A stretch of 64,000 nt of DNA, from contig NZ_PJJS01000053.1 of assembly GCF_002929845.1 (NCBI RefSeq), positions 1-64,000 of the forward strand. The letters run 5' to 3'. The stretch is from Cryobacterium sp. M96. Its GTDB lineage: Bacteria > Actinomycetota > Actinomycetes > Actinomycetales > Microbacteriaceae. Below the pieces are notes generated by a model, which worked only from the letters and a program-made list of their open reading frames with translations, made no database searches and had not been told where the DNA came from. Position numbers and translations under genes: made by a program. Below, piece after piece: positions 47,318-62,475 of the stretch (position 1 is its first letter; each line of letters starts with the position of its first letter).

Positions 47318-50300
47318 TTACCGTTCGCGGCCATCGTCGCGAGTGCGCTGCTCAGCGGGTATCGCTTGGTCGCCACGGGTGGTGGCCTGGCGGGCATTCA
47401 CCGTGAGGCCAGCGGCGCGCTGCGCTTCGCGCTGCCGGTCGGCCGCGGCGCGATTAGCGACGCGCATCGCATCGAGCGCTGTGGCTGGCTTCTGCCGGCC
47501 GGCCTCGGGGCCATTCGTCTGGGTGCTCTGAGCCTGGGTGTTCTGCAGTGCGGATACGCGCGCCGCGAGCTCCGCACCAACGCTACGCTCCAGATACGCC
47601 TCAGGGATCGCCTGCGTCTGGGTGGGCTCGACCTTGTACCGGTCACGGAACACGTCGACTTCGGCCGCGAGGCGCACCCATTCCTGCCGGCGGGCGCCCT
47701 CGGCCGGGATGTCGCCGAGCTGCTGCGCCCAGTCGGGCTGTTCGACAGCGATCGCCGTGCCGCGTTCCTCGAGGCGCACAGCGAGGTACTCGTACCGTTC
47801 GGCCAGGTGGTCCCGCCATGCGGGAGCGGTGCCGGCTGCGTCAAGTACCCGGCGATCGGCGATCCACGCCGGTACTTCCGAGAGGTCGACCGCTGACACC
47901 GGAGCCGGGTCGGCGGGGGCTGTTTCGATGCGTCGTTCCATCCGGTGGGAGAGGACCGCGCCGACGTCATCGGCGGTGCCGCGTTCTCGCTCGTTCCACG
48001 ACGCCCGCAGCACCTGAGCCGGGTCAAGGCCTTGGGTTTCAGCGCGGGTGAGGGCGGCGGTGACGGCCCCCCAGCTCTCGGAACCGGTGAGGTTCCGGGC
48101 GTCCTGCTCCCCGAGGGTGTTGCCGACGAGTTGGGTGAAGCGGACGGTGTTGGCGCGTTCGGCGACGTCACCGTATTGGTCGATGAGAGTGACCAGGTTA
48201 TCGACTCGGGCTTGTTCGGCGCGGATGGTTTCGGTGGCGGAGAGCATCCCGTCGCTATGGCCGGCGATGGTGGCCAGGACGTCGCTCATGGGTTGGGCGT
48301 CTTCGGTCTCGACATAGAGATGGTTAGCTTCCTTCCCACGGGTCAACCCGACGTACACGAGTTCGCGGGAGGTAGAGGAGTCGGCGAGGACGTGAGCAGT
48401 GTCCGCGGTCATGCCCTGGGCCCGGTGAATGGTCGACGCGTAGCCGAGCTCGACATTGTTCTGCACGTACTCGGCGGGGAGGGTGATGCGGCCGCCGTGC
48501 CCGGCGTGGGTGACGGTCAACGCCCCGTCGGCTTGCACCTTTCCCACCGTCCAGACGTCACCGTTTTTGACCCGGTCGGTGCCGCGCCCGGTGCGGAGGG
48601 TGGCGTCGTTGAGCCGGGTCACGATCCGGTCGCCCTGGTACGCGGCCAATCCGTCGCGCAGCTGCGAGGACTTCTTCCCGGAGACCAGGCCGGAGCCCAT
48701 ACGGTACGCCTGAGCCCTCGTGTTGAGGTCGGCGACGGTCACGTTTTGTTGGGCGAGCATGACAGTGTTCTTGCCGGTTTCGTCGTCGTGCTGCCAGGCG
48801 GCGAAGACGTGGTCGGTCATCCGGTCGATGCTGCCACCGGTGACCCGGTTGTTGTCCACGTACCAGCGGAACGGGTCCCCCACGGTGGCTGGGTCGCGCA
48901 GCTGCCGGGTTGCTTCGGCTTCGGCTGGGGATGTGAACCGGTGGATCTCCTCGAGCTTGACGGAGCCGACTTCGCGTTCAAGTAGGCGCAGCGCCCCGCC
49001 GGACTCGACGGCGGCGAGCTGACGGTCGTCACCGATCAAACGTACGTGCGCCCCGTGACGCTCGGCAATGCTGGTGACCTTCGCGAGGTTGAGGGTGCCG
49101 GCCATGCCGGCCTCGTCGACGACGATGATGTCCCCCGCCCGCAGCTTCAACTCGTCCGGGTGGCGACTGTCCGGGTTGGCATCCCCGTGGGTGTCGTACG
49201 CGCGGACGAAGGAGTGGATCGTGGCCGCCGGGACCTCGACGGCGTCGCGGAACACGGCGGCCGCCGTCGCCGACGGGGCCAACCCGATCAGGCGGCCGCC
49301 AGCTTGCTCGGTGGCGCGGGCAGCCAACGCGAGGGCGGTGGTCTTCCCGGCACCGGCGGGCCCGGTCGCGACGACGAGGAGCGTACCGGAGGTCGTGAAC
49401 TCACGGGCCAGGGCCCGCTGCCCGGCATCCAAGGGTCCGGTGTGGCGGGCGGCCGCGCGGTCGAACTCGGCCACCGTGATGGGGGCGATCGTGCGGGTCT
49501 GGCCAGCAGCAAGGAGGGTGTCTTCGGCGGCGAGGAGGCCAGTGGAGGTGAAGAGCATGCGGCCCTTGTGCTCGTAGATACTCGACCCATCCCTGCGAGT
49601 CAGAGGCTCAAAAGAACCGTGCGGGGCAGGCGGGGTCACAGCGATCGAGTCCGTCTCCAGTGCACGGCGTGTTATCTGCTCGACGGTGTCTGCGGGTACG
49701 GGTCCGAGGCTGGTTTCTTTCTGGACCCAGCGGCGGGCTTCGGCCTCGATCATGTGCGGACCCCAGACCGCGCGATGCTCCGACACCGTCGCCACGACCT
49801 CACGTGCAGCCCGGTCCACATCCACCAGGCGCGGCTCCCCCGCCCTGCCACTCGTGGCCGGCGCCACGGACCGGGCATCCTTGAGGAGGTTCTCTACCGT
49901 GGCGGTTCCAACGCGTTCCGCGGCCTTGGTAGCCCACTCGGTGCGGAGGCCGGCGAGGGAGCGGGCGTGAGCTTTCGCGGGGCGGGTCTCGAGGGTGGCT
50001 TGCTGGGCGAGCTTGATCCGGGCGACCGCGTCCGGGCTGCGCCCGTGGGTGGCCCGGTAGTCCTTCTCGAGCTGGCCGACGACCTTCTTGATGTCCGCGG
50101 ACCGGGTCGAGAACGCCCCGGTGAGGCGCTCGTCGACACCGGCGATCTCGACCACGGGCCGCTTGCCCGGGGTGACTTCCCGCAGCTCCGTGGTCAGGCC
50201 GAGGCGGGTGGTGACTTCGTCCATGACGCGTTGGTTGTAGAACTCGGACGCGGCAACACCCTGACGGTGGAGGAGCTTGGAATCGATCGTGCGCCACTTC

Positions 50301-51133
50301 CCATCGATACCCTTGACCTTGTTCGCCACGACCAGGTGGTCGTGCAACTGCGGGTCACCATTCCGGGAGTCATAGTGACGGAACCGCGTCGCCACGAGCC
50401 CGCCCTCGACGTCGATCTGTGCGACCCCGTTCGTGCCCGCACGGGTCGCGATCGCTTCCCGCTCGAGGTACGAGACGGTGTCGAGGATCGCGACGGCCTG
50501 GGCATCTTCAATCGTCTTCCGGGTGTCCTCGTCGCCGAGGCCCCAGAGCACGGACACGCTCTTCGCGGGCGAGAACACCAGGTCGAATCCGGCGACAGCC
50601 TGCTGCGTCGGACGCGTCGCCGCTGTGATGAACCGGCCCAGCTCGTCCTTGTCCGCCGGCGGCCGGCCCTTCGCGTCGTGGAACGCCAGGTCGCCCTCAC
50701 GGGCACGGATCGCGCGGCGGTCGGCGACGTTTGGTTCGCGCCCGTTCACCTTCGTGAAGTCGGTGTAGCCGGCGGCGATCTCCGCAGACAGGTCCGTGCC
50801 GTCGACGCTGTAGCCGTAATACGAGCGGCCGAGCTTGGCAGCCTTCGTGGCCTCACCCACGGTCTTGCCCTGCGCCTGCGCCTCAGCAATGATCCGTTCG
50901 GCGTCGGGGTGCAAACCCTCACCGTAGAGGGCCTTCATCTGCTCCTCCGTGACAACCCCGGAGACGCCGAGTGCGGCCAGTCCCCCGCCGACCCAGACAC
51001 CGGGAGGGTTGCCATCCTCGGTGTAGTAATCGCCCAGCTCACGGCCGCTCTCCCGCTTCGAATCACCGGTCGCGACCTCGTTGGTGTAGTACACATACCC
51101 GTCTCCCGCAGAGAGGATATGCATGGTCATCAC
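47318..51133 (-). CDS. MobF-family relaxase-helicase (TrwC/TraA-like)
   Basis: A 1,271-residue conjugation protein. The N-terminal relaxase domain (to about 430) has Tyr residues near the start (YVYYTNEVATGDS), GFDLVFSPAKSVSVLWGLGD, and the HUH metal triad region (GDPQLHDHLVVANKV, near 264). The helicase part has Walker A VATGPAGAGKTTALALAAR near 594, the DEAGM Walker B (IIVVDEAGMAGTLNLAKV), RLIGDDRQLAAVESGGALRL and a late YASTIHRAQGMTADTAHVL motif. The nuclease would nick at oriT and the helicase unwind the strand. The gene begins GTGATGACCATG, with several possible starts at 51,124-51,133. Divergently, a small charged protein gene lies 295 nt away. No type IV secretion or coupling protein is in the window. 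Confidence 0.92.
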   Translation of the reverse strand: MMTMHILSAGDGYVYYTNEVATGDSKRESGRELGDYYTEDGNPPGVWVGGGLAALGVSGVVTEEQMKALYGEGLHPDAERIIAEAQAQGKTVGEATKAAKLGRSYYGYSVDGTDLSAEIAAGYTDFTKVNGREPNVADRRAIRAREGDLAFHDAKGRPPADKDELGRFITAATRPTQQAVAGFDLVFSPAKSVSVLWGLGDEDTRKTIEDAQAVAILDTVSYLEREAIATRAGTNGVAQIDVEGGLVATRFRHYDSRNGDPQLHDHLVVANKVKGIDGKWRTIDSKLLHRQGVAASEFYNQRVMDEVTTRLGLTTELREVTPGKRPVVEIAGVDERLTGAFSTRSADIKKVVGQLEKDYRATHGRSPDAVARIKLAQQATLETRPAKAHARSLAGLRTEWATKAAERVGTATVENLLKDARSVAPATSGRAGEPRLVDVDRAAREVVATVSEHRAVWGPHMIEAEARRWVQKETSLGPVPADTVEQITRRALETDSIAVTPPAPHGSFEPLTRRDGSSIYEHKGRMLFTSTGLLAAEDTLLAAGQTRTIAPITVAEFDRAAARHTGPLDAGQRALAREFTTSGTLLVVATGPAGAGKTTALALAARATEQAGGRLIGLAPSATAAAVFRDAVEVPAATIHSFVRAYDTHGDANPDSRHPDELKLRAGDIIVVDEAGMAGTLNLAKVTSIAERHGAHVRLIGDDRQLAAVESGGALRLLEREVGSVKLEEIHRFTSPAEAEATRQLRDPATVGDPFRWYVDNNRVTGGSIDRMTDHVFAAWQHDDETGKNTVMLAQQNVTVADLNTRAQAYRMGSGLVSGKKSSQLRDGLAAYQGDRIVTRLNDATLRTGRGTDRVKNGDVWTVGKVQADGALTVTHAGHGGRITLPAEYVQNNVELGYASTIHRAQGMTADTAHVLADSSTSRELVYVGLTRGKEANHLYVETEDAQPMSDVLATIAGHSDGMLSATETIRAEQARVDNLVTLIDQYGDVAERANTVRFTQLVGNTLGEQDARNLTGSESWGAVTAALTRAETQGLDPAQVLRASWNERERGTADDVGAVLSHRMERRIETAPADPAPVSAVDLSEVPAWIADRRVLDAAGTAPAWRDHLAERYEYLAVRLEERGTAIAVEQPDWAQQLGDIPAEGARRQEWVRLAAEVDVFRDRYKVEPTQTQAIPEAYLERSVGAELAARVSALQNTQAQSTQTNGPEAGRQKPATALDAMRVANRAAADRQREAQRAAGLTVNARQATTRGDQAIPAEQRTRDDGRER

Positions 51134-52022: not shown

Positions 52023-55000
52023 ATGTGTCCAGTGAACATCCCGTCGCCGACTCAACTCGCCGCCCGCACCGAGCTGCTTCGGACGAGAGAATCGGCCGAC
52101 AGCATTACAAAAAAGCTGCGGGAGTCTTTCCCATCCGTGCTCTGGACAGCCGAGCAGACCGGCGTAGACATTCGACCGAGCGTCAAGGCCTGGATAGAAA
52201 TAGCCGGCAGCGCGTCAGTTGCCGATTGGGTCGACAATGCAACTTCAGGACCACAACTCGCGATGCGATCCAGGGACGCGGCGGTCACCGACAAGACTCC
52301 CTTGCTCGGGCGGCTGATCCAAGAGGCGCAGCTGTCCTCAAGAGCAACTCAAATTGCTCCCTACCTACAGATGAACGGTATGACGCTCGAGACTTGCCTA
52401 ATTCGAGCTCGTATAAATGTCGCCGGAGCTGCATACGACGCGGCCTTCGAAACATCTTGGGAGCGTCGGACAGTGTTCGCCCGGACACTGAGGCTGGCTC
52501 GCGCATATCTCGAGTTCATACTCGAAGCCGACGAGATCGCTGGACGAGAGCACAATGCGCTGCTAACCGCCCGGCTTGGGATTGCGACGATTCTGACAGC
52601 TCGTTTTGCCCTGGTTAGCGAAGAGGAACTTCAAGCGGCGTGCGCGACTCTGTTGGAAGCACACGACGGAATGAACGAACATGTGCTGACCTATTTCCTT
52701 GAAGGCTGCCTCTGGCTCTACGACGCGTTCGACCTACGAGAATCACTGCAATTAGCCGCTAGAACCATCAATAAACACGATGCATCGACCTCGCCCATGA
52801 ACATATCGTGGGTCCTAAATTCAGCGGCAGTCTGGTCGAAATTGGCAAGCTGTGCCTCGTCCTACCCGGCTCAGAACAGCTTTCTCGACAAGGCTTTAAA
52901 CACGCTCCACCGTGTCGACCCAGAGTCGATTGGTCATGTGATTGATCGCCTTGCATTTGAAATGCAAGACGCTTATCTCTCTGCTCTACGAGATAGAACA
53001 AGCAGTTCGTTGAGAGAACTGGGATGCAGCGGAGTGCGATTCCCGTTCGCACTGCGCACGACTCATATTGACCTGCCGTCAGAGTTTTATGCGTTTGGAG
53101 ATGAAATCGCTGGTCGGCTTCGAGCCAGCGCTTCGGCCGGCAGCTATCTGTACAGGGACGTAACTGCTGAATTGCTTTCGTACATGGCGAGAGATGGGAG
53201 GTCTTCATCAGCCAAGGCCGTCAAACTGGTGACTGAGGCTATCTCTCTTCGCCGAGGGCTGGGAAACCAAAGGCAGCTCAAGGGCAGGCGTGTCGGCCTG
53301 GCGCAAGCGGAAGACCAGCTCTTTCTCGCTGAACTGGCCTCTAACCCGCAAGCCAGAATGCTCGGCCTGCTTTTTCTTGCGAGTGACGCTGATACCAATG
53401 CCGAAAGCGCAACTCGATTGAGCGTTCTCGCTAGGGACATCGAGAACCACGGTCCTTATATAGGCGCACTGCTGCCAGTGGAATCCGAGCTCGCCCTTCT
53501 TATACGTAATGGTGATAGTCGAGCTCTGTATGAACGTGCCGCTCGGGCCGCGACCCAGAGTCACGATCTCGCTCGAATTGCACTCGGCGGGCGAGGGGGC
53601 GTGATCGCGCTGCGTGATTCCGCAACTCGAATAGGCCAGACTTTCGTCTACAAGGTCTCACGAGAAATCGCTCTCGAACGTGATCGCTTAGCGACGGAGT
53701 CGATTACCCAAGCAATCACCGACGCGGGCCTGTCCGAGCGTTTCGGTGTCATCGAACACTTGTCGACGATGTCGCCCGAGGCAGCTGGGCTTGTGGACAC
53801 ATCACCTGACGCAGTCGTGTCGGTCCGCAGATTCCGAAATGGTCGGACACTCCACGCCGTCATCATGGCCGGAGAATTGGGCACACGCAGGCTTGTGATC
53901 CGCACAATCACGTTCTTGGCACTGATCCACGCCAACCCCAGCTATTCCGACGAGGTGTCGGGTGTCAGGCGCTCCATCTGGGAAACAGAAATGGGACGGT
54001 GGCTTCGCTCGATCTCAGTTGGTGAAGAACGCTCTGAGTTCTTCCGTCAATGGTGGCAATGCCTCGAGTCGGCACCCACCTTGCCGCGGCGAGATGCTCA
54101 TGCCATGAACTGGCTGGTCGAGGGTGACGCGCGGATCGTTGCCGTAGATCTCGAATCAATTGGATGGCGGCCGTTCGGGTATGAGCTAGCCCAGTTGTTG
54201 GAGGATACGCCTGTTTTCGATGTTCATGATTGGTCGTCTAGGGCCACGTGCCTGCGCACCTATGTCGAAGATTTAACGCTCTTTGGGGTTGAACTCAAAT
54301 ACTCTGAACAGGAATTGCTGGAGTTCTATGCAGCGGGCGTTCTGGCCCGCGCCGTGCGAACCTTGAGCAGCCCGCTACTCGACAGTCAGTCTCGGGCGCA
54401 CGGTGGTGAACTCCTAGTTTCGGTGGCCAGGGAGTTCACCGGGTCTGCTGTCGGTGCCCTCGCAAACCACTTGGTTCGTGCCTGGGCCAAGCGAACCGGG
54501 ATGGCTTCCGACGATGAACTTGTGCCGCTTGTGGACGCTGAAAGGCGCAGGATCAGTCGCGCAATGTCATTTCATCTCCGTCACAATGAAAAAGCTCCTG
54601 TGACGAAGGATGGGTGGATCCACGCCGAGGAACTGGCAGATCTGCTGACAGTTAACGGACACAAGGTGACCGCTCCTCAACTGCTCTTAATCGCGGGAGC
54701 TCTAGGCGAACCGCGATTTGAACTGGACGGCGATGAAATCCGTTCATCGTATGGTCATTCGACGACCAAAGCTGCGCTTAAATACGAGGCTCGTCGACCA
54801 CCTGAAACACTCTTTCACGCCACTCCCCTCCGCAATCTGCCGTCGATCCTTGAGGCGCAGGACGGTATTCGGAAGGGACAACGCCAGTGGGTGCACATGA
54901 CAGATTCCGTTGATGTCGCACTCAGCGCTTCACGACGCCAGCGCCAGCCAGTAGTCGTATTGGCCATTGATGCTCGAAACCTGGACGGTGTTGTCTTCGC

Positions 55001-55115
55001 ATCAGGGCACACGTGGCTCGCCAAGCGAGTGTCCAATGACGACCTTCGTATTCTGACGATAAGCGAGACGACGGACTTGCTGCTTAAGGAAAAAGACCCC
55101 GCACGCAACAGCTAA
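52023..55115 (+). CDS. Large multidomain protein: helical repeats, APH-like kinase and KptA/Tpt1 RNA 2'-phosphotransferase
   Basis: A 1,030-residue soluble protein. Residues 1 to about 520 are all helical with a repeat-like rhythm. Residues about 525-800 look like an APH-type kinase: a lysine strand FVYKVS near 544, then a catalytic loop RRDAHAMNWLVEGDARIVAV near 690 (Asp and Asn kept, usual His replaced by Arg) and DLES with the metal Asp. Residues about 845-1,020 match KptA/Tpt1, which removes an RNA 2'-phosphate using NAD+: FHLRHNEKAPVTKDGWIHAE, SSYGHST, LFHATPLRNLPSILEA, WVHMTDSVDVALSASRRQRQ and VVLAIDARNLDG. The RH pair, the GHS, the second Arg and the HxT contacts are present. KptA alone is about 180 residues. 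The codons are visibly less GC-rich than those of the polymerase downstream. It sits between relaxase and SOS-polymerase genes. The fusion as a whole is unfamiliar to me. Confidence 0.75.
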   Translation: MCPVNIPSPTQLAARTELLRTRESADSITKKLRESFPSVLWTAEQTGVDIRPSVKAWIEIAGSASVADWVDNATSGPQLAMRSRDAAVTDKTPLLGRLIQEAQLSSRATQIAPYLQMNGMTLETCLIRARINVAGAAYDAAFETSWERRTVFARTLRLARAYLEFILEADEIAGREHNALLTARLGIATILTARFALVSEEELQAACATLLEAHDGMNEHVLTYFLEGCLWLYDAFDLRESLQLAARTINKHDASTSPMNISWVLNSAAVWSKLASCASSYPAQNSFLDKALNTLHRVDPESIGHVIDRLAFEMQDAYLSALRDRTSSSLRELGCSGVRFPFALRTTHIDLPSEFYAFGDEIAGRLRASASAGSYLYRDVTAELLSYMARDGRSSSAKAVKLVTEAISLRRGLGNQRQLKGRRVGLAQAEDQLFLAELASNPQARMLGLLFLASDADTNAESATRLSVLARDIENHGPYIGALLPVESELALLIRNGDSRALYERAARAATQSHDLARIALGGRGGVIALRDSATRIGQTFVYKVSREIALERDRLATESITQAITDAGLSERFGVIEHLSTMSPEAAGLVDTSPDAVVSVRRFRNGRTLHAVIMAGELGTRRLVIRTITFLALIHANPSYSDEVSGVRRSIWETEMGRWLRSISVGEERSEFFRQWWQCLESAPTLPRRDAHAMNWLVEGDARIVAVDLESIGWRPFGYELAQLLEDTPVFDVHDWSSRATCLRTYVEDLTLFGVELKYSEQELLEFYAAGVLARAVRTLSSPLLDSQSRAHGGELLVSVAREFTGSAVGALANHLVRAWAKRTGMASDDELVPLVDAERRRISRAMSFHLRHNEKAPVTKDGWIHAEELADLLTVNGHKVTAPQLLLIAGALGEPRFELDGDEIRSSYGHSTTKAALKYEARRPPETLFHATPLRNLPSILEAQDGIRKGQRQWVHMTDSVDVALSASRRQRQPVVVLAIDARNLDGVVFASGHTWLAKRVSNDDLRILTISETTDLLLKEKDPARNS

Positions 55116-55491
55116 AAGCTGGAGTCATATCGAACGATCGCTAACCGCCCAGAGCAGGAGCGCAGCGGGGGAAGGAGTTTTTGCTGAAACTGTGACGACG
55201 GCTTGACGCCGGCAGCACGCAGTGAACAATCCCCCAGACGAAAAGCAACAAAGTTGACGTGCTCCGACCTATACAGTCGGGCACCAGGACTCCTCGTTAT
55301 TTGGCTTGACCAGCGTCCGAGGAGCCGAACTGGCGACGCCGGCGGGCAGAGTCCGTGTCGTCACCGCGTCGGTGTCTGCCGATGACCTCAACGTCTGTAT
55401 CAGCTCCTGCAACGCAGATGATGCGACTGCGACTTCCGTCTGTCGCAGGCAGCCCTTGCCAGTGTCAGACCCCGGACCTACACTCCCCATA
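55116..55491. other. Intergenic region before the SOS box, no firm gene
   Basis: 376 bases. A reverse-strand frame (stop at 55,269, ATG at 55,490) could encode about 73 residues, Thr/Ser/Ala-rich and starting at the edge of the LexA box, but no family is recognised. The first 80 bases after the large gene are GA-rich. No terminator with a T-run was found. Confidence 0.35.
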
Positions 55492-55507
55492 TCGAATAAA
55501 CGTTCGA
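55492..55507. promoter_or_regulatory. LexA (SOS) box
   Basis: TCGAATAAACGTTCGA fits the actinobacterial/Gram-positive LexA consensus TCGAACNNNNGTTCGA at 11 of 12 defined positions. It lies 38 nt before the TTG start of the DnaE2-type polymerase, as expected for a DNA-damage-inducible promoter. Confidence 0.82.
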
Positions 55508-55529
55508 TAGCAGGGGTTGGAGGTACGGA

Positions 55530-58500
55530 TTGGGACAGAGCTTCCCGCACCTCCGCGTCGCCTCCGCGTACTCGCCGCACTACGGCGTCACCATGCCCGA
55601 AGCCCTCGTCGACCAGGCCTTGGCCGCCGGTGCAGACTTCCTCGCCCTCACCGACCGGGATGGACTATACGGGGCGGTCAAGCACGTGCGGGCGTGTGCG
55701 GACGCTGGGATCCGGGCGGGCCTCGGCGCGGACCTGGCCGTCCACGACGATGAACACCGGCCACTCGGCCGGGTGACCCTGCTCGCGCACGGCGGCGACG
55801 GACGCGGGTATGCCGCGCTCTGCCGGGCCGTGAGCTCCGCGCACGAGGCCGGCCGGGTGCCGAGCATCGACCGGCGACGGCTTGCCACCTGGGCGGAGAG
55901 TCATGCCCTGACTGTTCTCCTCGGGCCGCTCTCTGATGTGGGGCTCGCCGTGGAACGCCGGGACAGCGCGGAATCGGTCGCGGAGTTGCGCGCGTGGCTC
56001 CGGGTCATGCCGATCGGCTCCGTCACCCTCGAAGTCGTCTGCCACCTGGCACCGACCGGCCTGCGTGGTTCCGTGGCCGCCGCCACCCGGATGCTGGGCC
56101 TCGCCGAGGACACCGGGACCCCCGCCATCCTCTCCAACGCCGTCCGCTATGGGGAGCCGGGGGACGCGACGACCGCGGATCTCGCCGACGCCACCCGGCT
56201 CCTCACCCCACTCGCCCAGCTCGAGGAACCGCAGGCAAACGGGCAAGCATGGCTGAAAGACTGGTCGCACATGCGCCAGGTCGCCCGGATGGTCGTCGAC
56301 GCCGGCGCCCGGAACCCCGGCGCCCTCGACCAACTGCTCCGCACCACCCAGGAGCTGGCGGACCGGTGCGCCCTCGACCCCGCCGCGGACATCGGACTCG
56401 GCACACCTCGGATGCCGGAGGCTTCGATCATCGGGGTGGTCGGCGACCCGGTGGCTGAGCTGTGGCGGCGGGCCCGGCACGGCATCGACGAACGTTACGC
56501 CGGCACCACCCTCGTGAGCGCCGCCCACACGGAGCTCGCACATGAGATGGAGACGGTCGAGCACCTTGGGTTCGCCGCCTACTTCTTGACCGTGGCACGG
56601 GTCGCCGACTTGATCCGCGGCATGGGCGTCCGGGTGCAAGCGCGCGGTTCCGGTGTCGGCTCCGTCCTCAACTACGCGCTTCGCACCTCCTCGGTCGAAC
56701 CGATCGAGAACGGGCTCATCTGGGAGCGGTTCCTCTCCCCCGAACGGCAGACCCTCCCCGACATCGATATCGACGTCGAATCCGCGCGCCGCCATGACAT
56801 CTACCGGGAAGTGTTCCAAGTCTTCGGTGCCGACCGGGTATCGCTGATGTCGATGACCAACGCGTACCGGGGGCGGGGCGCCGTCCGGGACGCCGGGCTC
56901 GCCCTCGGCATGCCCGAAGACCAGGTCGCGGCGATCGCGAAGCAGATGTGGCGGTTCAACGCCCGCGACTTCCGCCGGGCGCTCGAGGAGAAGCCGGAGC
57001 TGGCGGACCTTGCCGCGCAGGTGCGTAAGTCGCAGCAGCTGGACCAGCTGGTGGACCTGACCGCGAAGCTCGACCGGCTCCCCCGCCACATCAGCGTCCA
57101 CCCCTGCGGCGTCATCCTCTCCGACACGTCTCTCCTGGACCGGACCCCGGTGCAACGCTCCGGGATGGGGCTACCGATGTCCCAGTACGACAAACACGAT
57201 ATGGACCCGATGGGTCTGATCAAGCTAGACATCCTCGGCGTCCGGATGCAATCGGCGATGGCTTACGCGATCGAGGAGCACCGGCGAATCACCGGGGAGA
57301 CCATCGATCTGGACCGGGTCCCCCTCGACGACGAACCCACCTACGAGATGCTCCGCACCACCCGCACCCTCGGCGTCTTCCAACTCGAGTCCCCCGGGCA
57401 AATGGAACTGATCGGGAAGCTGCAACCTGAAGTCTTCAACGACCTGACCGTAGAGATCAGCCTGTTCCGCCCCGGCCCCATGCAGGCGAACATGCCCCTG
57501 CAATATCTGAAGGCACGGCACGGGGAGGTCGCACCCGACCACATGCACCCCCGGTTCAAATCGTTCCTCGCCGAAACCAACGGTGTCGTCGTTTTTCACG
57601 AGCAGGTGATGCGGCTCTTTGATGAGTTGACCGGCTGCGGGATGGGCAAGGCGGATGTGTTCCGCCGTCACCTCGGGAAATCCGGCGACCTCGCGGAGAT
57701 TGAAGCGTACGTGCGGCAACAGGCCGCCACCCGCGGGTTCCCGGCCCCGGTCATCGACCGGGCGTGGAAGGTGCTGTCCGGGTTCGGCAGTTTCGGCTTC
57801 GCCAAAGCACACGGGGCCGCATTCGCCCGCACCACCTACGAGAGCGCCTGGCTGAAAACGCACCACCCGGCCACGTTCTTCGCTGGGCTCCTCACCCACG
57901 ACCCGGGCATGTGGCCCAAGGACCTGATCGTCGCCGAAGCCCGCAACCTCGGCGTGCCCGTCCTGGGCCTCGATGTGCAGAAGTCCGCGCTGGACTACCG
58001 GGTGGAGCAGCTGGGCGACGGGCAGCTCGCCATCCGCCTGGCCCTGCCCGAACTCGCCGGGTCCAGTGCGGTGGAGCGGCAGCGGATCGCGGAGCATCAA
58101 CCGTTCTCCTCCTTGCAGGACTTCCGCGACCGGGTGCGGCCGCGCCGGCGCACGTTCGAAGCGTTGGCCCGGGTCGGCGCCCTCGACTCGTTCATCGGCT
58201 ACGACCGTGCCCGCCGCGGCGACCTCCTCGCCCACATCCAAGGCCTCGGCGGCAAGGCCCTGCCCGTCGGCCCCGACCAGCTCGCCTTCGACATTGAACT
58301 ACCCCTGCCCGACTTCTACCGGTCGGTCACCGCCCTCGACCTCCGCGGCCGCACCCAAACAGACGTCGAACTCCGAGACCTCGGCCTCGCCGTCAGCCAG
58401 CACCAAATGACCCGCTTCTACCCACTCTTCAAAGAACTCGGAGTCACGCCGGCGTCGGAGCTCGTGAACCTGCCGGGCGGCACCGAGGTACTCGTCGCCG

Positions 58501-58844
58501 GGGTCCGACGCGCCACCCACACACCCCCAATGCGCAGCGGCAAACGCGTAGTCTTCCTCTCCCTCGACGACGGCAGTGGGCCGGTATCCAACGTGGTGTT
58601 CTTCCACGACGCCCAAGCTGCGATCGGGGCACCCGTGTTCCGCACCCACTACGCCCTCATCCGCGGCCGCACCCGGCGCACCGGCGCCCGCGGCGTGTCA
58701 GTGACCGGCGAGCAAATGTGGGACCTGCTCGACGTGGGAGGGAAAGTTCGGGCACGCCAGGCCGCAGAGCAAGAACGGGAGCGGGTTGTGGTCGAGACGG
58801 AGGCCGCGGACAACGTCATCCAGATGTGGAGACGGAGAGCGTGA
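55530..58844 (+). CDS. dnaE2: Error-prone DNA polymerase III alpha subunit (DnaE2-type)
   Basis: A 1,104-residue C-family polymerase. The N-terminal PHP domain (HLRVASAYSPHYGVTMPEAL, LTDRDGLYGAVKHVRACADA) lacks key metal ligands: the first HxH reads Arg-x-Ala and TDH reads TDR. The polymerase site is intact (LPDIDIDVESARRHDIYREV, with LIKLDILGVRMQSAMAYAI and VVVFHEQVMRLFDELTGCG). FAKAHGAAFARTTYESAWLK and a C-terminal OB domain (EVLVAGVRRATHTPPM, VVFLSLDDGSGPVSNVVFFH) follow. DnaE2 acts with ImuA'/ImuB in SOS mutagenesis; neither is in the window. The TTG start has GGAGG six bases upstream and the LexA box 38 nt upstream. Length is normal. Its position next to a relaxase suggests carriage by a mobile element. 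Confidence 0.87.
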   Translation: MGQSFPHLRVASAYSPHYGVTMPEALVDQALAAGADFLALTDRDGLYGAVKHVRACADAGIRAGLGADLAVHDDEHRPLGRVTLLAHGGDGRGYAALCRAVSSAHEAGRVPSIDRRRLATWAESHALTVLLGPLSDVGLAVERRDSAESVAELRAWLRVMPIGSVTLEVVCHLAPTGLRGSVAAATRMLGLAEDTGTPAILSNAVRYGEPGDATTADLADATRLLTPLAQLEEPQANGQAWLKDWSHMRQVARMVVDAGARNPGALDQLLRTTQELADRCALDPAADIGLGTPRMPEASIIGVVGDPVAELWRRARHGIDERYAGTTLVSAAHTELAHEMETVEHLGFAAYFLTVARVADLIRGMGVRVQARGSGVGSVLNYALRTSSVEPIENGLIWERFLSPERQTLPDIDIDVESARRHDIYREVFQVFGADRVSLMSMTNAYRGRGAVRDAGLALGMPEDQVAAIAKQMWRFNARDFRRALEEKPELADLAAQVRKSQQLDQLVDLTAKLDRLPRHISVHPCGVILSDTSLLDRTPVQRSGMGLPMSQYDKHDMDPMGLIKLDILGVRMQSAMAYAIEEHRRITGETIDLDRVPLDDEPTYEMLRTTRTLGVFQLESPGQMELIGKLQPEVFNDLTVEISLFRPGPMQANMPLQYLKARHGEVAPDHMHPRFKSFLAETNGVVVFHEQVMRLFDELTGCGMGKADVFRRHLGKSGDLAEIEAYVRQQAATRGFPAPVIDRAWKVLSGFGSFGFAKAHGAAFARTTYESAWLKTHHPATFFAGLLTHDPGMWPKDLIVAEARNLGVPVLGLDVQKSALDYRVEQLGDGQLAIRLALPELAGSSAVERQRIAEHQPFSSLQDFRDRVRPRRRTFEALARVGALDSFIGYDRARRGDLLAHIQGLGGKALPVGPDQLAFDIELPLPDFYRSVTALDLRGRTQTDVELRDLGLAVSQHQMTRFYPLFKELGVTPASELVNLPGGTEVLVAGVRRATHTPPMRSGKRVVFLSLDDGSGPVSNVVFFHDAQAAIGAPVFRTHYALIRGRTRRTGARGVSVTGEQMWDLLDVGGKVRARQAAEQERERVVVETEAADNVIQMWRRRA

Positions 58845-61860: not shown

Positions 61861-62475
61861 CTACTTCTTCGATAGGAGCTTCGCACCGTCCGACCGCAGC
61901 TCCCCCGCCGGTGAGACATGGCGGTACAGCGTCTGCCGGGTGATCCCGAGCTCCTTGCAGAGGTCGCCAACCTTCGTTTCCTTCTGACCCATCGCGGCCA
62001 TGGCCAGGCGGACCTTGGCCGGCGTCATCTTGAACGGCCGCCCGCCCGTCCTCCCCCGTGCTCGAGCTGCGGCAAGCCCGGCGACAGTGCGCTCAGAAAT
62101 GAGCGCCCGCTCGAACTCGGAGAGAGCAGCAAAGATTCCGAAGACGAGCTTCCCAGGTGCCGTCGTGGTGTCGATCGCTGCCCCCTCTCCGGTGAGCACC
62201 TTGAGGCCGATGCCACGGTCGGTGAGGTCATGCACCGTATTGACCAGATGACGCAGGTCTCGGCCGAGCCGGTCCAGCTTCCAAACCAGGAGCGTGTCAC
62301 CATGACGAAGCGCCTTCAGGCAGGCCGCAAGGTTTGGCCGGTCGTCCTTCTTGCCGGATGCCTTGTCCTCGTAGAGATCCCCTGCAGCGACGCCGGCGGC
62401 CAGGAGTGCGTCTCGTTGTAGATCAGTGCTCTGCGAACCATCAGCTTTTGACACGCGCATGTATCCGACGAGCAT
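61861..62475 (-). CDS. Tn3-type serine resolvase
   Basis: A 204-residue resolvase/invertase. MLVGYMRVSKADGSQSTDLQ has the catalytic Ser. LLVWKLDRLGRDLRHLVNTV and FGIFAALSEFERALISERTV are the core and dimer helix, and GDLCKELGITRQTLYRHVSP is the C-terminal helix-turn-helix. Length is typical. The sequence is intact. No Tn3 transposase is in the window, so it is an orphan. A candidate res site lies directly upstream of the start, as in Tn3 elements, where the resolvase also represses its own promoter. Confidence 0.9.
   Translation of the reverse strand: MLVGYMRVSKADGSQSTDLQRDALLAAGVAAGDLYEDKASGKKDDRPNLAACLKALRHGDTLLVWKLDRLGRDLRHLVNTVHDLTDRGIGLKVLTGEGAAIDTTTAPGKLVFGIFAALSEFERALISERTVAGLAAARARGRTGGRPFKMTPAKVRLAMAAMGQKETKVGDLCKELGITRQTLYRHVSPAGELRSDGAKLLSKK

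Follow-up and report, generated by a model that had tools for sequence, protein, structure and literature searches.

A gene encoding three fused domains was identified in the window, a stretch of 64,000 nucleotides from contig NZ_PJJS01000053.1 of Cryobacterium sp. M96. The predicted protein combines a helical solenoid, a kinase of the APH type and a Tpt1/KptA RNA 2'-phosphotransferase, in that order. It was tentatively interpreted, with somewhat less than even confidence, as a single-gene, horizontally moving enzyme that would both add a phosphate to one substrate and take it off again, a nucleic acid being the most likely such substrate.

Architecture of the fusion protein

The open reading frame (ORF) was uninterrupted from its ATG to its stop codon (Table 1). 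An initial annotation, made from the letters of the window, had described about 500 helical residues at the N-terminus, kinase motifs in mid-protein and a KptA/Tpt1 module with RH, GHS and HxT motifs at the C-terminal end, and all of these were located. Helices extended from residue 9 to about 512 in AlphaFold2 models, forming a TPR-like solenoid; the motifs RRDAHAMNW (R689, D691, H693, N696, W697) and VDLES (D709) lay in the kinase (residues 513–825 approximately), while RH (853–854), GHS (911–913) and HAT (932–934) lay in the Tpt1/KptA domain (approximately 839–1010). The model built from a 13-member alignment had a mean predicted local distance difference test score (pLDDT) of 84.1 and a predicted template modelling score of 0.77. 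When the whole model was compared with the PDB using Foldseek, and the best 50 of 900 matches were considered, 18 KptA/Tpt1 chains ranked highest, followed by APH(3')-Ia chains and MphB. Structure prediction and fold search therefore placed a kinase fold in the middle and a Tpt1 fold at the end, and neither was missing. In a library of viral models, only two of 317 matches had E < 0.001, these being the RNA 2'-phosphotransferase of Neodiprion nucleopolyhedrovirus and one unnamed protein.

The helical part, modelled alone, had a pLDDT of 86.4. Its Foldseek matches were weak and to mixed solenoids, including APPBP2, TTC7B and NprR (template modelling (TM) scores by query of 0.10–0.33 among the 50 listed), and for this reason it is named only TPR-like. 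A PDB profile search with the same part returned one designed protein (E = 0.0004).

The three-part architecture is beyond chance, because the whole arrangement recurs in 14 other intact proteins. A pseudogene or a chance ORF was rejected in view of the conserved active-site residues and the purifying selection described below.

The KptA domain

The Pfam model PTS_2-RNA matched residues 841–986 (E = 2.8e-19; 70.3 bits against a cut-off of 26), and the NCBIfam equivalog cut-offs for KptA were missed (98.4 at best against 231). Ten distinct sequences returned by a PDB sequence search were all Tpt1/KptA (E = 2.6e-18 to 3e-13), with one unrelated sequence at E = 0.41. The best Foldseek match to KptA/Tpt1 had E = 2.1e-8, and the TM score to 9ld3 was 0.84; by target, TM scores were 0.78–0.85 for 14 of the 18 chains and about 0.5 for the other four (best 50 of 900). 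Bit scores for KptA were 58.6–83.3 in 12 fused matches, compared with 120.7–150.8 in six KptA proteins without a kinase.

Nine residues (R853, H854, R907, G911, H912, H932, R954, H958 and R972) were invariant in all 13 aligned proteins, and the third residue of HxT was threonine in ten of these and serine in three. The essential tetrad of CthTpt1, comprising Arg18, His19, Arg68 and Arg121 (PMC6333775; this and the other papers given by PMC number are cited for single passages), was matched, through motifs and the alignment from the PDB search, to R853, H854, R907 and R954. R907 aligned by motif with Arg64 of the Runella enzyme, the loss of which slowed step 2 of the reaction 210-fold but step 1 only threefold (PMC6333775). 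The invariance of R907 favours full phosphate removal over capping alone, and suggests that the complete two-step KptA reaction matters, in which case the phosphate would leave as ADP-ribose cyclic phosphate.

The same arginine bears on a different explanation, in which the fusion is a two-step toxin: the kinase would prime a hydroxyl on RNA or DNA, KptA would halt after step 1, and the resulting phospho-ADP-ribose cap would block the nucleic acid. ADP-ribosylation of 5'-phosphorylated RNA is described for KptA homologues including SCO3953 of Streptomyces coelicolor (PMC6582358), KptA-like toxins of such a kind have been suggested (PMC11833690), and the broken copies of the gene (G153, Demequina and G1682) would fit a costly gene. 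However, an invariant step 2 arginine would be unexpected if step 1 sufficed, and no conserved gene that could be an antidote adjoined the fusion at 13 loci or in the flanks of 17 loci. This explanation was considered unlikely. A toxin–antitoxin pair was rejected because of that same lack of a conserved adjoining gene.

The kinase domain

Pfam APH matched residues 603–728 with E = 0.0014, its 18.9 bits falling under the cut-off of 23.2. The divergent relative G1011 exceeded that cut-off (27.4 bits, E = 3.5e-6), and the relatives G1332 and G1182 gave no match to Pfam APH at E = 0.1. Querying the PDB with a profile of the kinase part produced one chance match only (E = 0.7). Foldseek matches to APH(3')-Ia began at E = 6.1e-5, with TM scores by target of 0.53–0.64 (best 50 of 900), and the nearest kinase folds among the matches listed were those of APH(3'), macrolide (MphB) and choline kinases.

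HxD and D-x-H-x-x-N are motifs of APH-type kinases. The HxD histidine was absent from the kinase domains compared, its position being occupied by arginine in 14 of 14 kinase domains and by lysine in G1011 and G1182, while the catalytic D691 and N696, the probable metal-binding D709 and the probable ATP-binding lysine K544 were present. Ten residues (G522, G523, R524, K544, R689, D691, H693, N696, W697 and D709) were invariant among the 13 aligned proteins. The replacement of histidine looks like a feature of the family rather than decay, and a substitution that is fixed while the remaining catalytic residues are retained points to a kinase that is active but altered in detail. A dead kinase was rejected, given that the arginine was invariant (14/14) alongside K544, D691, N696 and D709, and the earlier suggestion that RxD may abolish kinase activity lost ground for the same reason.

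The fold matches would also fit an explanation in which the kinase is of the antibiotic or metabolite type and KptA acts on its product, since the closest folds were APH(3'), macrolide and choline kinases (best 50 of 900). Small substrates have also been suggested for APH kinases in conflict systems (PMC7159879). Such a small-molecule enzyme was nevertheless judged improbable, a fused eraser that undoes a drug modification being hard to rationalise. A solenoid of 500 residues would also be unusual for enzymes of this kind.

Family members and distribution

Carriers comprised 15 intact fusions, 14 from Actinomycetota and one from a Thermobaculum metagenome bin, together with the three broken copies already named and one relative without KptA. 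The intact fusions were those of the window, Leifsonia, Rathayibacter, Frigoribacterium, Nocardiopsis, Nocardioides, Haloactinopolyspora, Curtobacterium, the Thermobaculum bin, Promicromonospora, Microbacterium, SN12, G427, G1011 and G1332. In the broken copy of G1682, the match was confined to residues 667–1028 and split into two segments, one of them interrupted by a stop. The KptA-less relative in G1182 (L054:9478–13230; 1,250 amino acids) consisted of the helical part and a kinase (KRDAHADNW) and ended where KptA would start; no KptA was found in the frames downstream of it.

The fusion was sporadic. A search of the order with the single protein matched 18 of 396 genomes, of which three had the fusion (own genome included, one broken) and 15 had KptA alone, while a search of the family with a solenoid-kinase profile identified five of 398 genomes (own included, one broken). 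Class and phylum searches matched eight of 394 and three of 396 genomes respectively; among these 11 rows, two were the own genome, G1026, G1235 and G1279 were short and not counted, G111, G153 and G1283 were repeats, and three carriers were added (G1011, G1182 and G1332). Within the genus, two of 57 genomes had the fusion (own included, the other copy broken), and within the Thermobaculum phylum one of 151, namely the Thermobaculum bin itself. Among genome contigs, the profile produced 24 stretches representing 12 distinct loci, and the single-protein query produced seven candidate stretches and zero relatives. Viral contigs gave no match to the single protein and six stretches with the profile, of which zero were relatives. 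The full protein matched 64 plasmid records, all at less than 80% coverage, and the best 40 of the 64 matched residues 807–1030, the KptA end, only. The solenoid-kinase part of the window protein had no match in plasmids or phages.

Selection, origin and mobility

Purifying selection was evident on all three parts of the protein in one pair of homologues. For this pair, L032/G1332, the ratio of nonsynonymous to synonymous substitution rates was 0.21 for the helical part, 0.16 for the kinase and 0.12 for KptA; this was the sole pair with a usable synonymous rate throughout, synonymous sites being saturated or nearly so for L038/L039. Pairwise distances covaried among the helical part, kinase and KptA across 13 proteins (r = 0.92, 0.75 and 0.74; p = 0.0001 each). 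In the KptA phylogeny, 17 fused domains were separated from 15 standalone domains by a single branch (98/95; recovered in 97% of the 200 bootstrap trees). The standalone set came from the same order only and the long G1011 branch is unsure, such that a wider sample could alter the split. Both the covariation and the split are as expected if the domains had stayed together, and the tree fits a single origin of the fusion.

The fusion gene is mobile, as shown by its sporadic occurrence, low G+C content (GC) and few shared neighbours. The phylogeny did not track taxonomy closely, with Curtobacterium and Microbacterium grouping with other families (82/84), apart from the other Microbacteriaceae. 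Gene GC was below that of the flanks at 18 of 18 loci (p = 7.6e-6), and GC at third codon positions (GC3) was below the neighbour median at 17 of the 18, a set that includes two split copies and the KptA-less relative. At four loci from three same-genus genomes, the polymerase gene downstream of the fusion was shared with the window (about 90% identity), and the fusion itself had no match in these three genomes. The fusion gene seems to occupy a variable slot, because same-genus homology resumes just past it. Mobility had been proposed from the start, and was borne out by the GC difference, the same-genus junction and the occurrence in two of 57 genomes of the genus.

Table 1. Features of the fusion gene and its downstream junction, with positions in the window.
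Feature	Position	Strand	Basis
Fusion gene	52023..55115	+	1,030 amino acids, stop included; homologous full-length fusions exist
N-terminal helical solenoid, residues 9-512	52047..53558	+	AlphaFold2 secondary structure; weak Foldseek TPR-type solenoid matches
APH-type kinase domain, residues about 513-825	53559..54497	+	Pfam APH below cut-off; Foldseek APH(3')-Ia
LGGR (521-524), head of kinase N-lobe, nucleotide-binding-loop position	53583..53594	+	GGR invariant 13/13
K544, probable ATP-binding lysine	53652..53654	+	Invariant 13/13 and 14/14
Catalytic loop R689-R-D691-A-H693-A-M-N696-W697, RxD for HxD	54087..54113	+	R689, D691, A692, H693, N696, W697 invariant
D709, probable metal-binding aspartate (VDLES)	54147..54149	+	Invariant 13/13
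Tpt1/KptA domain, residues about 839-1010	54537..55052	+	Pfam, NCBIfam, PDB, Foldseek
R853-H854, Tpt1 tetrad residues 1 and 2	54579..54584	+	Invariant 13/13; tetrad per PMC6333775
R907, third tetrad residue (step 2 arginine)	54741..54743	+	Motif match; invariant 13/13; role per PMC6333775
H932 of HxT NAD+-binding motif	54816..54818	+	Invariant 13/13
R954, fourth tetrad residue	54882..54884	+	Motif match; invariant 13/13
R972, likely NAD+ phosphate-caging arginine	54936..54938	+	Invariant 13/13; role by analogy with PMC6333775
Junction downstream of fusion gene	55116..55451	.	Same-genus homology starts at 55156 (two loci) or 55450-55451 (two loci)

Proposed mechanism

Tpt1 works in fungal tRNA splicing, and for most organisms outside plants and fungi no pathway for RNA 2'-phosphates is known according to the same passage (PMC6582358). 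One study reports evidence that a bacterium contains an endogenous phosphorylated substrate of Tpt1 (PMC6333775), and in archaea KptA can erase an internal RNA 2'-phosphate made by a kinase (PMC9095486). The kinase-KptA fusion points to a substrate of bacterial KptA that is made in cis. In the window's own genome and in 11 of the 12 carrier genomes searched, i.e., 12 of 13, the fusion was the only KptA match; the Demequina copy among those 11 is split, and the exception, Nocardiopsis, has a second KptA. Synthesis in cis is thus the simplest source of substrate, and the most economical interpretation has the fused kinase supplying the phosphate for the fused KptA to take off. The initial annotation had supposed a writer and eraser of a nucleic-acid phosphate; the pairing is consistent with the conservation of both sites, with purifying selection and with this status as sole KptA, whereas the identity of the substrate is presumed.

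In the mechanism proposed, the APH-type kinase would spend ATP on phosphorylating a hydroxyl group of RNA or of some other nucleotide. The fused KptA would transfer this phosphate to NAD+, releasing ADP-ribose cyclic phosphate, while the helical solenoid would sense a partner or an invader and keep both sites in order. Once triggered, the cycle would convert ATP and NAD+ to ADP, nicotinamide and ADP-ribose cyclic phosphate, with RNA regenerated like a catalyst. Such spending of ATP and NAD+, with release of ADP-ribose cyclic phosphate, would suit a one-gene abortive-infection effector. That the pair is run as a futile cycle in defence, making it a one-gene abortive-infection system and the first known single chain with a writer and an NAD+-dependent eraser, is a doubtful further step beyond the writer-eraser reading. 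If this further step holds true, bacterial KptA would gain a natural substrate.

Alternatively, the kinase could regulate KptA or a protein partner, through autophosphorylation or signalling, while KptA repairs RNA ends made by nucleases. Solenoids joined to kinases are common in signalling. KptA is tied to RNA repair in phages and cells (PMC9503650), but no repair partner was conserved nearby, since no gene was common to more than two of 13 loci; this explanation was rated as unlikely.

A defence role for the fusion gene is plausible. Several hand-picked context proteins (ten from seven loci, then eight, then ten from same-genus loci) were compared with PADLOC. In Leifsonia, a type IIG restriction enzyme was situated 32 bp downstream, with an integrase and a TrwC relaxase upstream. 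The Promicromonospora copy had an AbiU/AIPR gene 458 bp upstream, itself preceded by a HerA-like ATPase, while an OLD/Gabija-like ATPase was 456 bp upstream in Microbacterium. Haloactinopolyspora had a mad8/HerA-like protein 1.2 kilobases (kb) upstream, and the copy in SN12 was followed, at a distance of 3.5 kb, by a type II restriction enzyme. Proteins picked from two further loci had no defence match, the eight additional proteins gave matches only for L041 (MkoC-like) and L040 (weakly Ppl-like), and the surroundings of several other loci resembled housekeeping genes by eye. Among same-genus slots, that of L081 had a full type I restriction system upstream, about 2.9 kb away, and one protein from each of the remaining two slot loci had no PADLOC match.

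Enrichment was evaluated with PADLOC matches of E up to 1e-20 for 130 of the 132 neighbours called at 18 loci (window 55272–55580 and L043 15782–19000 were left out), compared with 96 of 96 neighbours from 14 control regions in seven carrier genomes; gene calling for the neighbours relied on a simple composition score. At the focal loci, the categories counted were restriction enzymes, AbiU and mad8, and typeIV_RecD, MkoC, DolB and the PDC models were left out. Control matches included PD-T4-6, PglW, C3a189, mad3, mad6, MkoA and one mad8, of which mad8 alone was counted (25 of 26 families listed); PD-T4-6, PglW and C3a189 are presumably of kinase type. A focal type II restriction enzyme match (PDLC03409, E = 1.1e-80) was unplaced among the proteins, which may leave the counts of loci short by one.

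Several observations weigh against the writer-eraser reading or its extension to defence. Differences between focal and control proteins were not significant (6/130 versus 1/96, p = 0.24; in a second count 4/130 versus 0/96, p = 0.14), and neither were those between loci (3/18 versus 0/14, p = 0.24; in a second count 5/18 versus 1/14, p = 0.20), p remaining above 0.13 in all four tests even though the categories were chosen after viewing the lists and favoured defence. Raw PADLOC families were more numerous in controls (26) than at focal loci (16), and the fusion protein itself matched no PADLOC family up to E = 5. The fold neighbours of the kinase are small-molecule kinases (best 50 of 900), and the G1182 relative, which has the helical part and kinase without KptA, raises the possibility that the kinase functions independently. 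Phosphates could have other sources, given that ArkI homologues occur in some bacteria (PMC9095486) and that 2'-phosphates possibly arise from opened cyclic phosphates (PMC9503650). Finally, a writer and eraser in one chain would cancel out without timing. Restriction and Abi genes near several loci keep the defence role supposed initially plausible, but their enrichment over control regions was not significant.

Genomic neighbourhood

Two neighbours had been named in the window and both exist: a TrwC-type relaxase (47318–51133; TrwC E = 6.5e-85) and a DNA polymerase III alpha-type protein (55530–58844; E = 1.4e-105). They had been taken, the second as a putative SOS polymerase, as signs of a mobile defence or stress system. 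However, a survey of homologous neighbourhoods, in which the full architecture recurred, found no neighbour ORF of at least 80 amino acids common to more than two of 13 loci, and the relaxase and polymerase were rejected as conserved partners on that basis. Among the neighbours common to two loci was the TrwC relaxase, present in the window and, at one other locus, upstream in Leifsonia. Across the 800-bp flanks of 17 loci, one weak tblastx pair was shared and nothing else, and a scan for promoters and terminators gave results at chance level. Without widely shared neighbours, the fusion has the appearance of a one-gene unit.

A second alpha-type gene elsewhere in the own genome (G000:C32) had 70% DNA identity to the polymerase gene over the part tested, and near copies occurred on different contigs of same-genus genomes. 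These further copies in genome and genus make the polymerase copy look accessory and mobile. The window also encoded a serine resolvase (61861–62475; Pfam Resolvase E = 3.3e-44), and a stretch 93% identical to it lay near the polymerase copy in L080. In G1492, a SoFic-like Fic protein (L079:16256–17638; PADLOC E = 1.8e-65) was encoded on the upstream side of the same polymerase gene, some 11 kb from it, in a region that may be a cargo slot. In G1332, a pentapeptide-repeat protein (L053:12364–14049; GC3 0.58) was encoded just downstream of the fusion gene.

Comparison with known systems

Each domain is known, and the ordered three-part fusion, with its conservation and mobility, was not found described in the literature covered. 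No description of a KptA-kinase fusion was present in the open-literature titles, abstract openings and passages covered, which for several searches were part of a longer list of matches, a scope outside which lies the 2016 RNA repair survey of Burroughs and Aravind; the passage of PMC7159879 on APH-type kinases in bacterial conflict systems mentions the kinases but not KptA. The architecture would be hidden under the name 'RNA 2'-phosphotransferase'. In G079, a 470-amino-acid ORF (L015:640–2052) joined a LysR-type regulator (HTH_1 and LysR substrate domain) to KptA at residues 291–454, a fusion that could be either genuine or artefactual.

The fusion shares with Tpt1/KptA (PF01885; PDB 9ld3, 8tg4 and 6ede) the fold, the Arg-His-Arg-Arg tetrad and the HxT motif, but its KptA forms a divergent branch on one side of the tree and is C-terminal to a kinase and solenoid. 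With APH phosphotransferases (PF01636; APH(3')-Ia, MphB, choline kinase) it shares the kinase fold and the D-x-H-x-x-N loop; it differs in having arginine for the HxD histidine, in falling under the Pfam cut-off in the window protein and in being fused at both ends.

ArkI and KptA are the writer and eraser of 2'-phosphouridine at U47 of archaeal tRNA (PMC9095486), and the resemblance lies in a kinase that writes a phosphate erasable by KptA. By contrast, the archaeal genes are separate, and ArkI is of ePK type with HGQ and DFE (PMC9095486), while the fusion kinase is of APH type with RRD. Membership of ArkI was rejected, because RRD or RKD occurs where ArkI has HGQ. ArkI was absent both from the best 50 of 900 fold matches and from the results obtained when the kinase part was run as a profile against the PDB. 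The comparison drawn in the initial annotation is one by analogy of kinase-plus-KptA chemistry. The archaeal pair, with the same chemistry, and the purifying selection on the fusion parts could also indicate a reversible RNA-phosphate switch in one chain, with a housekeeping or stress function in tRNA control rather than defence. Against this, the fusion is sporadic, mobile and broken in three genomes, and its kinase is without the HGQ of ArkI (PMC9095486); the switch was accordingly given little credence. Its hosts are also not known to be thermophiles, with the possible exception of Thermobaculum.

TIR, SIR2 and the like are defence effectors that deplete NAD+. The fusion would resemble them in consuming NAD+ if the proposed cycle runs freely, and would differ in also needing ATP and a nucleic acid. 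If the cycle does serve defence, it would represent a novel route to the depletion of NAD+ and ATP, unlike the catalogued NAD+-depleting systems.

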